43,037 nt of DNA from a virus. Where the stretch lies: positions 1 to 43,037 of the IMG/VR virus record IMGVR_UViG_3300031223_000015. One strand, 5' to 3'. Every line of letters begins with the position of its first letter. Within the stretch, counting starts at the first letter, position 1. The notes beneath the pieces were generated by a model that was not told the DNA's origin, ran no database searches, and saw only the letters and a program-made list of their open reading frames with translations. Shown piece after piece: positions 9,342 through 34,197 of this stretch. Made by a program: the position numbers and the translations under genes.

Positions 9342-9370
9342 TTTAAACTTACCAGTATTACTGCTAGAAT
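9342..9370 (+). promoter_or_regulatory. Promoter of the rightward operon, with palindromic operator
   Basis: The perfect palindrome CAGTATTACTG (9353-9363) is followed by one base and then the -10 hexamer TAGAAT (9365-9370), giving an extended TG. A weak -35 (TTTAAA, 9342-9347) lies 17 bases before it in very AT-rich DNA. The predicted start is near 9377. The palindrome could also drive the divergent minus-strand operon. Confidence 0.65.
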
Positions 9371-12381: not shown

Positions 12382-12410
12382 TTTGCAGATATTAGTAATA
12401 CTGTTATAAT
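12382..12410 (+). promoter_or_regulatory. Late-type promoter before the portal cluster
   Basis: AGTAATACT (12394-12402) is followed by TG-T and a perfect -10 TATAAT (12405-12410). A partial -35 TTTGCA lies at 12382-12387, 17 bases upstream. This is the best match to the shared motif. The predicted start is near 12417, about 64 bases before the next gene. Confidence 0.7.
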
Positions 12411-16295: not shown

Positions 16296-16320
16296 AGCCC
16301 CTTTAACTAGGGGCTTTTTT
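16296..16320 (+). terminator. Rho-independent terminator
   Basis: AGCCCC (16296-16301) and GGGGCT (16310-16315) form a 6-bp stem with an 8-base loop, followed by a run of T to 16320. It ends the transcript of the terminase-portal-scaffold cluster just before the capsid promoter. Confidence 0.88.
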
Positions 16321-16333
16321 ATTAAGTCAACTG

Positions 16334-16362
16334 TTGACTAATATTAGTATTACTAATACACT
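16334..16362 (+). promoter_or_regulatory. Major capsid promoter with palindromic operator
   Basis: TTGACT (16334-16339) and TACACT (16357-16362) are -35 and -10 hexamers 17 bases apart, the best overall sigma-70 layout of the series. The spacer holds the palindrome TATTAGTATTACTAATA (16343-16359), whose AGTATTACT core has the same phasing to the -10 as at the other sites. A regulator bound there would sit on the promoter. Confidence 0.7.
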
Positions 16363-16371
16363 AAGGCCATT

Positions 16372-16386
16372 CGAGTAGTGAACTCG
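16372..16386 (+). other. Hairpin at the 5' end of the capsid transcript
   Basis: CGAGT and ACTCG pair around AGTGA, only a few bases after the predicted start near 16369. A second hairpin, GCAC-GAAA-GTGC with a GNRA tetraloop, lies at 16421-16432. Stem-loops at a 5' end commonly stabilise phage late mRNAs. The capsid leader is about 165 bases long and contains no gene. Confidence 0.55.
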
Positions 16387-16532
16387 TAAAAAACTCCTGA
16401 CATACACAGCTAAGTATGCCGCACGAAAGTGCTTCGTTAGACCCACGCACGGGACAAACACAAAGGCTAATTTTTAATAAATTTGCCCTAGTTTTTGTTT
16501 CGCAATGATTAGGGAATAACGGAGTAAACCAC

Positions 16533-17651
16533 ATGGCTGGTAATACAAATTTCGCAGCACTAGATGACGATGCTAAAAAAGTATGGTCACGAGACGTATG
16601 GCACCAAGCACGAGAGAAGATGTTTACATCACGCTTTATCGGCACGGGCCAGAATTCAATGATCCAACGCATCCCAGAGTTAACCAAATCAGAACGTGGT
16701 CTTGAAGCCATTGTTACTTTAGTACCTGACATCGAAGAAGATGGTGTGGTCGGTGATGATGTTCTTGTCGGAAACGAATCAGAAATGAAAGCGGTTCAGG
16801 ATAAGATCCAAATTGACCAGTTACGTAACGCGGTTAAGAACACTGGTAAACTGAATGACCAGGCAACTGTCGTTAACTTCCGCGACCAAGCGAAAGACCA
16901 ACTTGCCTACTGGCTTGCAGACCGTTGTGACCAACTTGCTTTTTTAACAATGGCTGGTTTGGCTTACACCAATAAAAACTCAGGTGGAACGCGTGGCGGT
17001 AACTTAGGTAACTTGTCATTTGCGGCTGATGTAACAGCACCCTCGTCTGAACGTTACCTTGTAGTTAAGGGTGATATACTTGAAGAAGGTTTGGGTACGT
17101 CTGATTTAACTGCAACAGACAAATTCGGTTATAGACACATTGTACGCCTACAGGCTTACGCTAAAACGAACTATGTTCGCGGCGTTCGTGGTAACGGCGG
17201 CTCAGAAGTCTATCACTTGTTCCTTCACCCGATGGCAATGGCCGAGTTAAAGCTCGACACTGACTTCATTGAGAACGCTCGTCAAGCTGGTGTTCGCGGT
17301 GATGGCAACACGTTATGGGAAGGTGGAGACACGTACAAAGTAGATGGCTTGTTCATCCACGAGTTTCGTCACGTACCGACTACACTGACTGCCACGACCA
17401 AATGGGGCGCAGGCACAGATGTTGAAGGTTGCCGTGCAATCCTAGCAGGCGCTCAAGCAATCGCGATGGTTGACTTGGACTCAGGCTCATGGGACGAACG
17501 TGATCACTTCGATTTCGGTAACAACTACGCAATCGCCTACGGCAAAATCTTCGGGTTCAAGAAAACTAAATACTTGTTCGCCAAGAATGCTGCGGATAAC
17601 ACCAATGTTAAGCAAGATTACGGTGTCATTATCGTCGACATGGCTATCTAA
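16533..17651 (+). CDS. Major capsid protein, N4-gp56 family (372 aa)
   Basis: This protein builds the head shell. The order RFIGTGQNSMIQRIPELTK, then VTLVPDIEEDGVVGDD, NESEMKA, IQIDQLRNAV and LADRCDQLAFLTMAGLAY matches the N4-gp56 family of capsid proteins with an HK97-type fold. The length (372) is in the normal range, with no protease domain or extra domain. It has its own promoter and a long leader, and is flanked by secondary structure on both sides, fitting its need for the highest expression. A GGAG site lies 9 bases before ATG 16533. Confidence 0.9.
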   Translation: MAGNTNFAALDDDAKKVWSRDVWHQAREKMFTSRFIGTGQNSMIQRIPELTKSERGLEAIVTLVPDIEEDGVVGDDVLVGNESEMKAVQDKIQIDQLRNAVKNTGKLNDQATVVNFRDQAKDQLAYWLADRCDQLAFLTMAGLAYTNKNSGGTRGGNLGNLSFAADVTAPSSERYLVVKGDILEEGLGTSDLTATDKFGYRHIVRLQAYAKTNYVRGVRGNGGSEVYHLFLHPMAMAELKLDTDFIENARQAGVRGDGNTLWEGGDTYKVDGLFIHEFRHVPTTLTATTKWGAGTDVEGCRAILAGAQAIAMVDLDSGSWDERDHFDFGNNYAIAYGKIFGFKKTKYLFAKNAADNTNVKQDYGVIIVDMAI

Positions 17652-21087: not shown

Positions 21088-23198
21088 TGGCCGGTGCGGA
21101 TTATTTTTTACAGGCATTAAGCCTATGGAACCAAGAAGCTGAGCGCAAAGATAATGTTGCGTTTAGAGACTCACAGGCGCGTCAGACTCAAGAGAATACT
21201 GAGGCCCAGCGAACGATTGACAATAACCGTCTCGATGCTAATTTAGCGTGGCAAAAGAAGAAGTTTGACATGACCAATGCCAATACCAAACGGGGTCTTG
21301 GTCAAGGCGATAGACAAATAGATAACGCCCAGACGAATGCCGAGGGAAATGCGACACGAGCTGATAAGCGAATTGACCAGACTAGTAGACAGCAAGATTT
21401 CCAAGAGGGTAAGTTTGGTAAAACCCATGAGTTCAATAAGACTAAAGAGGGAAATCGTCAGGGTAATTTTGATGATAATTTAGACTTTAGAGAAAAAAGC
21501 TTAGCGCAGGATCAGAGCCAGTTTGATGACCGATTAGAGCAGAATCAGAGCCAGTTCGATGCTACTGACGAGAACGCAGATGCGTCTCTTGCTCAGCAAA
21601 AAGTACGTGATACCAACAGGCAGGCAAACGCAGAGGTGCGAAACGACATCGCACTTGCAGGCAATAAGCGTGTGCAGACGGTATTTGATAACGAGAAGGA
21701 CAGAACGCAACAGTTACAGCGTTCAGCAAAGCTTCAAGCGGATTCCCAGCGGGAAACCACAGAGCTTGCCAACAAGTCCCGAACAGAAACATCAGCGTTT
21801 ATAACGAGGGCTAACAGTGGCAAACAGGTTGATATTACTAAGATAATGTTAGGTAACAATCTCCCTGAAAACATAATGAATAGTGTGCGCCCTAATAGCG
21901 GCAAAGGGTCTGGTATCTTTTCACGCCTTGACCCAAAAACAGGCTCATACCTTTTATCCACTAAGGACAAGGAGGGTAACTTCCTGCCCTTTACTTTAGA
22001 CCCCAAAGCCAATAACTCCAAGCAACTGCGTATTGGTAAAAACCAATTGATGCAAGTACTGAGTCAAGTGTCAAACGTAGTCGGCCAAGTTGGTGAGCAA
22101 GATACCAATGGCAGTATGATGTCAGCGGCGCTTATCCAAAAAGCGGGGCTTATCATTGATGACGGCGAAGTGATAACGGGTGCAGTACATGACGCACGAA
22201 CGGACGCAAAACAACAGCAACGCGAGTACGTTAAGCAGAAAGCAGCAGACGAAGCGGCAGATGCAGCGGCCAAGCAAGCACAGGACGATGACATTAGGCG
22301 AGGCGGTGTGTTGAGGGAGGCTGGCGTTGGAGTGGAGAAAGCAACTAATTTCATTGCCAAAGACTTGGGTATTTTCGGCAGTAATCTCACTGACTTTTAT
22401 TTTGGAAAGAAAGCAAATGCCGAAGATATAGGAGAACAGCCCGAGAAAGCCATCACCCATCCAAAAGCGACACCTAAAGTGTGGCGGGATTTCCTCAAGA
22501 TAAATGCACCCGAGCAAGATGCGCGCAAACGGGCGGCGGCGGCGAAAATATTTGGTGATCACAAATCGGCATTAGCCTCTACTAAGCCCAAACGCAAAGA
22601 GGCAATGGATTTACTACGTCAGGCCAAGCCCGAAATGGATGTGCAAAAAACACTTAACTTTGAGGAGACAGGTACTTTCGCGTCACGCGAGGAATTAGAT
22701 ACCCTGAACCTGAAAAACAATAAAGATATAATCGAGTATCAGACGGCGGTTGAGGAGCTTCGCCAGTTGCAGGGTGAAGGTGAAGGCGAAATTTCACTTG
22801 CGGATTTCTACACGGCTGCCGACCCAATATTGGAGAGAGCCGCGCAGTTGGGTGTTCCTGCAGATTTTGGGAAGGGTCGTTCTGCTTATGTCAAGCAGTC
22901 CAAAGCGCGATTTGGCGAAGCATTGTCAAGCTTCATGGTTAGCACGGGAGCCGACCTTGATACATTGGTTGGGCTTGAGGGCGGTGTTGCGATGACTAAC
23001 ATGTTCTCTATCATGGAGCGCATGAACTACGACAGGGATGTTAAGATTACGTCACTGGCGATACCCTATGCGATGGCGATGGGCGGCGTCGATTTGACCG
23101 AGGACAATATCGGACGACTACAGCAATATGCAGATGACCGTGACATATCCTTAGAACAAGCGGCCATTGAATATGTTGACGAAATCAATAAATTGTAG
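21087..23198 (+). CDS. Ejected core protein, T7 gp15-like (703 aa)
   Basis: Residues 1-230 are extremely hydrophilic, rich in Q, N, D, R and K with repeated short patterns (DQSQFDDRLEQNQSQFD; AQTNAEGNATRADKRIDQ) predicted to form long helices. The remainder is mixed, including a second helical region around residues 470-700. There are no membrane segments. The order gp14-like, this protein, giant protein matches the three ejected proteins gp14, gp15 and gp16 of T7, where gp15 lines a periplasmic tube. Sequence similarity itself is not evident. Confidence 0.6.
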   Translation: MAGADYFLQALSLWNQEAERKDNVAFRDSQARQTQENTEAQRTIDNNRLDANLAWQKKKFDMTNANTKRGLGQGDRQIDNAQTNAEGNATRADKRIDQTSRQQDFQEGKFGKTHEFNKTKEGNRQGNFDDNLDFREKSLAQDQSQFDDRLEQNQSQFDATDENADASLAQQKVRDTNRQANAEVRNDIALAGNKRVQTVFDNEKDRTQQLQRSAKLQADSQRETTELANKSRTETSAFITRANSGKQVDITKIMLGNNLPENIMNSVRPNSGKGSGIFSRLDPKTGSYLLSTKDKEGNFLPFTLDPKANNSKQLRIGKNQLMQVLSQVSNVVGQVGEQDTNGSMMSAALIQKAGLIIDDGEVITGAVHDARTDAKQQQREYVKQKAADEAADAAAKQAQDDDIRRGGVLREAGVGVEKATNFIAKDLGIFGSNLTDFYFGKKANAEDIGEQPEKAITHPKATPKVWRDFLKINAPEQDARKRAAAAKIFGDHKSALASTKPKRKEAMDLLRQAKPEMDVQKTLNFEETGTFASREELDTLNLKNNKDIIEYQTAVEELRQLQGEGEGEISLADFYTAADPILERAAQLGVPADFGKGRSAYVKQSKARFGEALSSFMVSTGADLDTLVGLEGGVAMTNMFSIMERMNYDRDVKITSLAIPYAMAMGGVDLTEDNIGRLQQYADDRDISLEQAAIEYVDEINKL

Positions 23199-23203
23199 CT
23201 ATA

Positions 23204-23232
23204 TGGATAATAATTAGTATAACTGTTAAAAT
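23204..23232 (+). promoter_or_regulatory. Late-type promoter before the giant core protein gene
   Basis: TTAGTATAACT is followed by TG-T and the -10 TAAAAT (23227-23232). The -35 region TGGATA (23204-23209) is a partial match at 17-base spacing. The predicted start near 23239 falls at the end of the left arm of the hairpin at 23230-23260. Confidence 0.65.
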
Positions 23233-23260
23233 CCTATTACTAACCTAATAGGATTTTTTT
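23230..23260 (+). terminator. Hairpin with T-run that also masks the next ribosome-binding site
   Basis: ATCCTATTA (23231-23239) pairs perfectly with TAATAGGAT (23246-23254) around a 6-base loop, and can extend through flanking A/T pairs. A T-run to 23260 follows, giving a terminator for transcripts from upstream genes. The AGGA inside the right arm is the only ribosome-binding site for ATG 23262. RNA begun at the promoter at 23227 lacks the left arm, so the site would be free. Confidence 0.75.
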
Positions 23261-23261
23261 C

Positions 23262-26200
23262 ATGTCTAAAGAAGCCGATAGCATCATTTCCAAACTTATT
23301 GCCAAAGGTAAAAACTACGATGGCGATACCGTTTACGATAAACCTCATGGTCACCCCAACCGTAAGGGTTTTCGGATGACAGGTTTTGATACACCCGAGG
23401 TAACTAAAAATCACCCCAATGCGGACCTCGCTAAAAATGCGCTTTCGGCACTTTTTAGGAATGGGGCTAAGGCTGAGACGACAGGTGAGTTCGGTACGCA
23501 TGATCGTGAACTAACAGATGTCGTGGACGAGGAGGGTAATAACCTTTCTAGCGAAATGATAGCGAGTGGCCTTGCTTCACCCACAGGCTTCTCTAACGAG
23601 CGAGAAATGGAGTCCGAAAAGTACGGCAACATACGCCAAGCATTTGGTGAGGAACGTTCATCTAACCCTGTCCTAGCATCCTATGGTAATAAGCGCGAAT
23701 CAATTGATGACATGATCAAGCTGATAGGCCGTCGCTCAATTAAAAATAACAAAGGCTACTACGACACACGAGGAACAGGAGAACGTTCTTGGGACCGAGG
23801 CGTTGAGGACTCTAAAATTGCACTTGGCGGCGCGATTAACTATTTAGGTGACCGACTAGACTCCGATATTATGCGCGAGTATGGTCGTGAAATGTTCGTC
23901 GAGGCTGAGTACGATAATGCTTTTAACGGGCGTGAAGTGGAATCCTATGACGAGATTGAAGATATAGGCGATGTGATGACCTATGGCATGGAGAGCATCG
24001 GTGAAGCATTGCCAGGTCTTTTAATGGATGGGGGCTTAGCGGCTTTGTCAGGCGGTACAGCACTACCCGCTATTGCGGCAAAACGCACGGCTGGCGCGGC
24101 GATAGGTAAACTTGTTGCAGGCAGAATGGCAACTGGTGCGGCGGTATCGTCAGGGTTACAGTCCGGCGGTGCGATGGAGGCAGAACTAGAAGCCCAAGGC
24201 AGCGAGAACAATCCATACGCCCCTGTGGCGGCTGGCGGTGTAACCGCGTTAATGACTAAGCTTCCAGTGGGTGTTGTCCTTGACCGAGTGCTTGGTGTCC
24301 TTGACGAAAAAGCGGCTAAGACAGTTGGCGAGCGAGTCATCAAAGCGTTTAAGACAGCAGGCGTAGGCGCAGGCATAGAGGCACCAACCTCCGCAGTAGA
24401 ATCGTTATCTAACCAGCTCATATCACAGATTGCACTCAATAAAGAAAAAGTTGAGGTGGACATAGGCCAAGTAGTCGATGAAACCTTACGAGGTGTGATT
24501 GGCGGTGGTGCATTTGGCGCAACAGGTCAAGCAATGGCAGAGGGCGTCGATGCATCGTATCGCCACGCCGAGAAGCGACTTAAAGATTTCGGTGACGGTT
24601 ACGAGAAGAATGAAGATGGGACTGATAAAACAGTAGACGTTGAACAGCAAGATTTTGAGAACACAGAGTTGGGTATCAACCCTGCTGAGGTGCCCAATCT
24701 CTCGCAGAAAGATTATGATTATGTCAGCAAGACTATTGCCCCGAAAGGGCAGCCAATATCTCTTAAATGGTTAAAGCAGAAAATTGATAATGAAGAAGTA
24801 ACAGAACAACAAGTCACCAGTTTTCTCGCTGATGATATTAGCGGCGAAGGCAATGATATTTTCCAATTGCAGGGTGAAAAACGCAGTTTGAGTTTAGGTA
24901 AGCAGAAGTTAAGTGCTATCGCCAAGGGTGTGCGCGAAGGTAAAGTTAAACTTGAACCCGAAGCAGCCCGTGCGGTAGGCAAAGCCCTAAAGTCAGGTGA
25001 GGGTAAAGACATTGGTATGGCGCTCAAAATGGTGGGTAACTCATTTGACAGTAAAGGCATGAAGTCCTCTACTTTGGATGTAAGGGCCATGTGGCAGTCG
25101 TTTATTGAAAAGCAGAAAAAGCCTAACCCGCCCGAAGATAAAACGTCAGAGGCCAATGCCGAAGTAGATGGCTTAGGTCGTGACGAAGCACCAGATGGTT
25201 ACGGCGATGACGAGAACGTTGAGACAACTGCTGAGAAACCCAAGCCCAAGAAAGACTTAGACTTTATGACTTACGCGCGTGAACGTGCGGATATGGGTGA
25301 CCGGGAACTTAAAACAGCAGTTGAGCTGTTTGATAAGTACAAAGACACCAAAGACCCCGAGGAAAAACAGCAGGTAACTGAGGTACTGCGGTTTATCACC
25401 AAACGCGCCAAAGAAGGCATGAAGTTAGAGCGTGAAGATAACGTTTACCAACAAGTGCTGGACGAGTACGAAACCATTAAAGATTCTGATGATCCGAATG
25501 ACATTACCCGAGTGGAAGAAATTACAAAGTTTGTCAAGCAGCGCAATGACGAAAGTGATAACGCTAACCCGCTAGTGGCTCAACGCTCAGGCACGGATAA
25601 AGACGGTGAGTTCCAAGGTGACATTAATGATCAAGTCGAAGAAGGTGACACCTTCGAAGATTTGACCGTGGGCGAACTGGACGGCAAAGACTTAACCGAT
25701 AAAGAGCGCACTGTGAACCGTGAGGGCTTCGCTAAGCAGTTTACTGATTTAGTTACCCAGTTGGGCGAGTTACCGGAGTTCGCTGGACTCAAGGAACAGC
25801 TAGGCTTACTTCGACAGGTTGCTACGACTCGACTTCTCAAGGTGGACATGGAAGAAGTGGAAACCATGTCAAAAGGCAGTAAAGGCACTCACCCACGCAA
25901 ACTCGCCACCAAAGACCAGAACGCCATTCAAAACGAAGGTGAACGGCCAGCTCGTGTGCTTAACCCTCAATCCATAAAGTCATTGACTAACTCACTGGAA
26001 AAGGGATTGCCCGACAGAGCGTTAAAAACACTTAAAGAGTTAGGCTTATTCGTTGAAGGTCAGATGATAGGTGATACGCCCAGACGGACATTGGAAACAG
26101 ATCTAAAGCAGAAAGCCCGAGCGACTAAGGCCAAGCGTTTTAAAGGTGAGCTGAAAGATAACGAGGTGCTATCGACCAAAGAAGGTGACTCGTTTGAAGT

Positions 26201-29240: not shown

Positions 29241-29264
29241 CATTAGTAGTAATACTGTTATAAT
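29237..29264 (+). promoter_or_regulatory. Late-type promoter before the nozzle gene
   Basis: AGTAATACT (29248-29256) followed by TG-T and a perfect TATAAT (29259-29264) repeats the shared motif. GTGACA (29237-29242) is a 5/6 match to the -35 at 16-base spacing. The predicted start is near 29271. Confidence 0.72.
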
Positions 29265-29265
29265 T

Positions 29266-29302
29266 GTAGTAGCGAACTAATAGGAGTGTTCCATGCTACT
29301 AC
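29266..29302 (+). other. Inverted repeat that would enclose the start codon of the nozzle gene
   Basis: GTAGTAGC (29266-29273) pairs with GCTACTAC (29295-29302). The loop holds AGGAG (29283-29287), and ATG 29293-29295 touches the right arm. Read-through RNA could fold this way and be poorly translated, whereas RNA begun near 29271 lacks most of the left arm. Confidence 0.55.
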
Positions 29303-34169: not shown

Positions 34170-34197
34170 TTTAATATATTAGTAATGCTGTTAGAAT
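34170..34197 (+). promoter_or_regulatory. Late-type promoter before the cytochrome gene
   Basis: AGTAATGCT (34181-34189), one mismatch from the palindrome, is followed by TG-T and TAGAAT (34192-34197). The -35 match is weak (TTTAAT near 34170). The predicted start near 34204 gives a leader of about 19 bases, with AAGGGA as ribosome-binding site. Confidence 0.65.

Follow-up and report, generated by a model that had tools for sequence, protein, structure and literature searches.

The 43,037-base virus record analysed here, referred to below in its full length as the window, represents a podovirus-like phage that possesses genes for terminase, the portal, and the major capsid protein and has the Pseudomonas phages KPP25 and tf as distant kin. 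A 63-nt gap in this record separates a 703-aa gene from a 1992-aa gene encoding a giant virion protein, whose C-terminal part has relatives among the structural proteins of phages tf and KPP25. A predicted promoter, a hairpin, and the Shine-Dalgarno (SD) sequence of the giant gene are found together in this gap (Table 1), raising the question of which RNA the giant protein is translated from. Our analysis indicates that one short sequence probably serves as promoter, hairpin, SD, and start-codon spacer, making the giant gene dependent on its own promoter. At its N-terminus (window 23262-23700), the giant protein is SNase-like, with an SNase match (E 0.0013) that falls short of the cut-off and a match to the phrog_452 endonuclease (2.8e-5); the SNase match of the giant protein of the nearest relative, L001 (7998-15095), passes the cut-off (E 2e-6).

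Table 1. Features of the giant-gene junction and of related junctions (window coordinates unless a relative is named)
Feature	Position	Strand	Basis or remark
703-aa gene	stop at 23198		upstream neighbour of the 1992-aa gene
Weak -35-like hexamer TGGATA	23204-23209	+	17 nt before the -10; consensus scan, not above chance
Predicted phage-type promoter, TAGTATAAC plus extended -10 TGTTAAAAT	23215-23232	+	-10 hexamer 23227-23232; 3 mismatches to TAGTAATACTGTTATAAT
Predicted transcription start (+1)	23239	+	from the -10 position; uncertain by about 2 nt
Hairpin left arm AAAATCCTATTA	23228-23239	+	sequence, fold, covarying pairs in six lineages
Hairpin loop CTAACC	23240-23245	+	fold
Hairpin right arm TAATAGGATTTT	23246-23257	+	fold; contains the SD AGGA (23250-23253)
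U-tract of 7	23254-23260	+	sequence; putative terminator tail and SD-to-ATG spacer
Giant virion protein gene, 1992 aa	23262-29240	+	ATG at 23262
Promoter motif sites	12393, 19625, 23215, 29247, 34180	+	motif scan
Exact promoter motif before the next gene (29293)	29247-29264	+	motif scan
Weaker hairpin GTAGTAGC / GCTACTAC	29266-29273 / 29295-29302	+	over the start codon of gene 29293
Endolysin-gene promoter/RBS hairpin, L276	6623-6691
Endolysin-gene promoter/RBS hairpin, L284	8194-8259
Endolysin-gene promoter/RBS hairpin, L278	16968-17031	-
Endolysin-gene promoter/RBS hairpin, L293	3759-3819

The phage promoter motif, TAGTAATACTGTTATAAT, is composed of an upstream box and an adjoining extended -10. 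Five sites with three or fewer mismatches were found in the window, all on the + strand, versus 0.04 expected, and the related genomes contain two to seven sites each versus 0-0.5 expected. Most copies are located a few tens of bases 5' of a gene start; position 9353 of the window was listed as a further site. The motif in the gap recurs at the same junction in relatives, and the promoter predicted there is well supported by this recurrence and by the enrichment of the motif. A generic sigma-70 scan of the window yielded 21 promoter-like sites versus 22.4 expected, i.e. not above chance. The upstream part of the motif, AGTAnTACT, is palindromic, as expected of the site of a dimeric regulator. 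No match to sigma factor region 2 was obtained in a search that detected its positive control; a search for a single-subunit RNA polymerase (PF00940) also gave no match but missed its control, and is therefore uninformative. The transcription start, placed seven bases after the -10, would coincide with the final base of the hairpin's left arm, in agreement with the preliminary description of this locus, in which RNA from the local promoter starts after the left arm. The motif site at 34180 is the own promoter of a cytochrome-c-like gene in this phage record (34223-37102, + strand), whose 959-aa product combines a signal-like N-terminus with two CxxCH motifs (656 and 737) and matched HZS_alpha (1.6e-8) and cytochrome CBB3 (4.9e-6) in Pfam.

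The hairpin itself, previously described as spanning 23231-23254, is in fact three pairs longer and comprises 12 perfect pairs, and the five final bases of the -10 also belong to its left arm. Among 5,000 shuffles of the 63-nt junction, only 1 gave a stem with 12 or more Watson-Crick pairs, while the fold energy alone was unremarkable for this region (z -1.6), and no Rfam covariance model matched 22900-23600 at E values up to 0.5. The AGGA in the right arm is the only good SD of the giant gene and lies 8 nt from the ATG. The hairpin is stable and is followed immediately by U7, as in a terminator; its stem contains two G-C pairs and its core (-6.7 kcal/mol) is the weakest of its family, so that termination at this site may be weak, and a terminator scan rule demanding three G-C pairs misses it. 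The capsid gene has a long leader (16296-16533) whose conventional terminator (16296-16315) is closely followed by a promoter-like site (16334-16362), i.e. the two are arranged in tandem and are not nested.

The proposals that the hairpin buries the AGGA in read-through RNA and that RNA from the local promoter cannot fold it are both borne out by computed accessibilities. In the window, the probability that the SD is unpaired was 0.001 in read-through RNA and 0.39 in local RNA; part of the SD is thus still paired in the latter. The computed cost of opening the segment from the SD to the ATG was 11.7 kcal/mol in read-through RNA and 3.5 kcal/mol in local RNA, and the corresponding values were 14.2 and 4.4 in L264, 15.6 and 4.2 in L022, 15.5 and 6.4 in L009, 12.7 and 2.6 in L012, and 11.4 and 3.7 in L270. 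This result was robust to shifting the start by -4 to +2 nt, with exceptions at -4, where L264, L022, and L012 still carried 5.7-6.6. The difference between read-through and local RNA was greater at gene starts with a nearby motif promoter than at 236 further gene starts subjected to the same truncation (p 3e-5). The difference in the window was 7.3 versus 5.7 for the largest control, and six sites, including that in the window, lay beyond every control.

Read-through RNA from the upstream late genes would contain both arms and fold the hairpin, and much of it should end at the U-tract; in any RNA that passed the U-tract, the SD would be locked in the helix. RNA from the nested promoter, starting at the end of the left arm, would form no hairpin, escape termination, and expose the SD. 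The giant gene would in this way rely on its own promoter and be decoupled from head-gene transcription upstream, so that the amount of its product could be set independently of the latter.

The arrangement is not confined to the window. Relatives were gathered via the capsid protein; the giant protein or the internal virion protein gave only one contig. The composite element is present at the same junction in six distinct, diverged lineages: the window; L264; L022/L011; L009/L010/L008/L269; L012/L014/L016/L017; and L270 (Shewanella gaetbuli). These lineages share the layout TGnTAWAATCC-stem-loop-stem-GGATTTT-ATG (GGGTTTT in L264). The invariant left-hand TGnTAWAATCC and right-hand GGATTTT correspond at the same time to the -10, the SD, and the U-tract, and the position of the extended -10 within the left arm does not differ among the six. 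In L012 and L270, TATAAT replaces TAAAAT and one outer pair is lost, indicating that the promoter has precedence over the stem there. A scan of seven phage genomes (409,846 bases) detected seven U-tailed hairpins with a nested extended -10, six of these hairpins being at this junction, whereas shuffled sequences gave 0.27 on average and at most 3. A covariance model recovers these junctions at E values of about 1e-7 or better, six of them having been used in building the model. Elsewhere in this group, a strong 13-pair hairpin (AGTGTTACTGGT/ACCAGTAACACT) lies over an extended -10 at a different place (L286 7447-7484, in G005), and the L022/L011 lineage carries one more motif copy, located upstream of its nested promoter (L022 / G003 23812, - strand); RNA from this copy would include the whole hairpin and hence be blocked, a point against the proposed design. 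L270 is a member of the phage group located inside a large bacterial contig (229 kb, Shewanella gaetbuli DSM 16422), pointing to integration of the phage or to another form of carriage.

Within the stem, pair 8 is TA, CG, GC, or AT depending on the lineage, and pairs 9-12 vary on both sides. The covariation score was 0.379 versus 0.142 for shuffles, none of 500 shuffles reached 0.379, and slid structures scored 0.082 or less; the score includes two false mismatches, as MAFFT sets the one-pair-shorter stem of the window one column off, and hand-registered pairs were used for the pair-by-pair comparison. L264 retains the helix through three G-U pairs, which keep the RNA helix and break the DNA palindrome, and thus matter only to RNA. 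Because the inner pairs covary and L264 keeps its helix in this manner, we infer that the RNA hairpin has been selected. If the arms were instead a DNA-level inverted repeat controlling the promoter as an operator or cruciform at the -10, RNA folding would be irrelevant. A repressor could indeed act at the -10 and the predicted start, both of which the arms overlap, but the retention of pairing despite sequence variation among lineages, the G-U pairs of L264, and the asymmetry of the U-tract and SD make this explanation highly improbable.

Several junctions in the relatives serve as natural controls. At that of L001, which is without a terminator, the fold is different: AAUUCAUAAAUA pairs with UAUUUAUGAAUU across the start codon (12-bp stem, z -3.8). 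As the left arm is upstream of the local promoter, the AUG would be buried only in read-through RNA. L265 retains the nested promoter and the terminator, and its SD is located outside the hairpin, which counts against the composite reading. The gene that follows the giant gene in four relatives specifies an endolysin-type peptidase of 124 aa (phrog_894, E 6e-28, in G002); the endolysin role was assigned to the G002 and G004 proteins through family searches and to those of G003 and G007 from position and similar protein starts. These endolysin-type genes are preceded by a promoter of the same motif, with its -10 at the left-arm base; their SD is part of the right arm, and a U-tract is present at only one of the four copies (the G002 copy; L276), suggesting that occlusion is retained where termination is absent. 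Termination and occlusion therefore seem to be both useful and separable, judging from L001, the endolysin-gene copies, and L265. At the next gene in the window (29293), which is preceded by an exact motif copy and a weaker hairpin, the difference was 2.6, within the range of the controls, and only a weak version of the design is present.

These junctions also bear on a rival account of the locus, namely that the hairpin is an ordinary intrinsic terminator of the upstream operon, with an SD overlap due to genome compactness, occlusion as a by-product, and a promoter that is merely nearby. SD overlap by itself could indeed reflect compactness, and an overlap of terminator, SD, and ATG is not special: the order of hairpin, GGATTTTTT, and ATG is frequent in viral contigs, where, among the matches listed, 63 of 130 stems of at least eight pairs stand in front of ORFs of 80 aa or more, with TGn 5' of only 7 of these 63 sites. 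L265, too, has a terminator without burial of the SD. The element in the window resembles these generic overlaps in its hairpin, GGA in the right arm, U-tract, and ATG and differs from them in having a family-specific extended -10 in the left arm. A search of viral contigs with the pattern TAWAATCC..GGATTTTTT..ATG was too general to be of use; the matches listed show that terminator-SD overlap is common and do not show that a nested promoter is. Against the ordinary-terminator account, the start codon of L001 is hidden without any terminator, three of the four endolysin-gene copies bury the SD without a U-tract, and the position of the extended -10 in the left arm is constant in the six lineages. 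We consider this account unlikely and retain the composite element with its nested promoter as the preferred interpretation.

A similar arrangement is known from phage T4. The RBS of T4 gene e is sequestered in a stem whose 5' strand is encoded by DNA that also contains a late promoter; only RNA started locally is translated well, and translation of the long RNA is lower by ~100-fold (PMC3014915). For I-TevI, I-TevII, I-TevIII, segB, and Aeh1 mobE, a late or middle promoter is placed such that the RNA lacks the RBS-hiding part (PMC2988022). The comparison with gene e drawn in the preliminary description is apt: the computed pairing of the SD in upstream-started RNA and the predicted start, which leaves local RNA without the 5' strand of the stem, both have their counterparts in T4, and the design recurs in front of an endolysin-type gene in the four relatives. 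Unlike in T4, the element is fused to a terminator in most lineages, and the phages and their promoter motif are unrelated; the review of gene e does not describe its stem as a terminator (PMC3014915), and no terminator fused to an RBS hairpin is reported in the review of the homing endonuclease genes (PMC2988022), which are also of a different kind from the giant virion gene concerned here. The element thus appears to be a variation on the known T4 e/I-TevI arrangement, with the fused terminator as an addition. A literature search with limited phrasing found no published description of a phage promoter inside a terminator, which is weak evidence of absence.

The likeness to T4 probably does not extend to timing. 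According to the preliminary description, the hairpin would delay synthesis of the giant protein until its own promoter fires, as in a switch by which no protein is made from early or middle read-through RNA and synthesis awaits the activity of a later promoter class. Such a switch would account for an anatomy that is the same as that of T4 e and I-TevI (PMC3014915, PMC2988022) and for the second copy of the design before the endolysin-type gene. The delay would require read-through RNA of an earlier class, however, and the upstream promoters carry the same motif as the nested one, as do those of the structural genes at 12393, 19625, 29247, and 34180 on the same strand. Whereas the two RNAs of gene e belong to different temporal classes, the nested promoter, by its motif, appears to share its class with the neighbouring late genes, so that simultaneous firing is more likely than delay, and no earlier promoter class reading into the giant gene was found. 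We therefore regard a timing switch as quite improbable; the mechanics of hairpin, SD, and promoter proposed earlier are supported by the comparison between genomes, and the proposed purpose is not supported. Insulation or dosage control of the giant gene within one temporal class is the likelier purpose.

More generally, the overlapping promoter, hairpin, SD, and start codon may constitute a modular start cassette that restricts selected genes to their own promoter; where a U-tract is present, upstream RNA would also be terminated, and about 45 bases would insulate the gene at both transcription and translation. We consider the chances that this generalization is correct to be about even. If it is, the cassette would represent a compact natural insulator, by which a gene in a busy operon responds only to its own promoter in both transcription and translation, and one design would serve both a giant virion protein and an endolysin-type gene. 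The principle known from T4 gene e would thereby be extended to unrelated podovirus-like phages, with covariation as evidence for a selected RNA fold, in a design that is short enough to be tested and reused in synthetic circuits.
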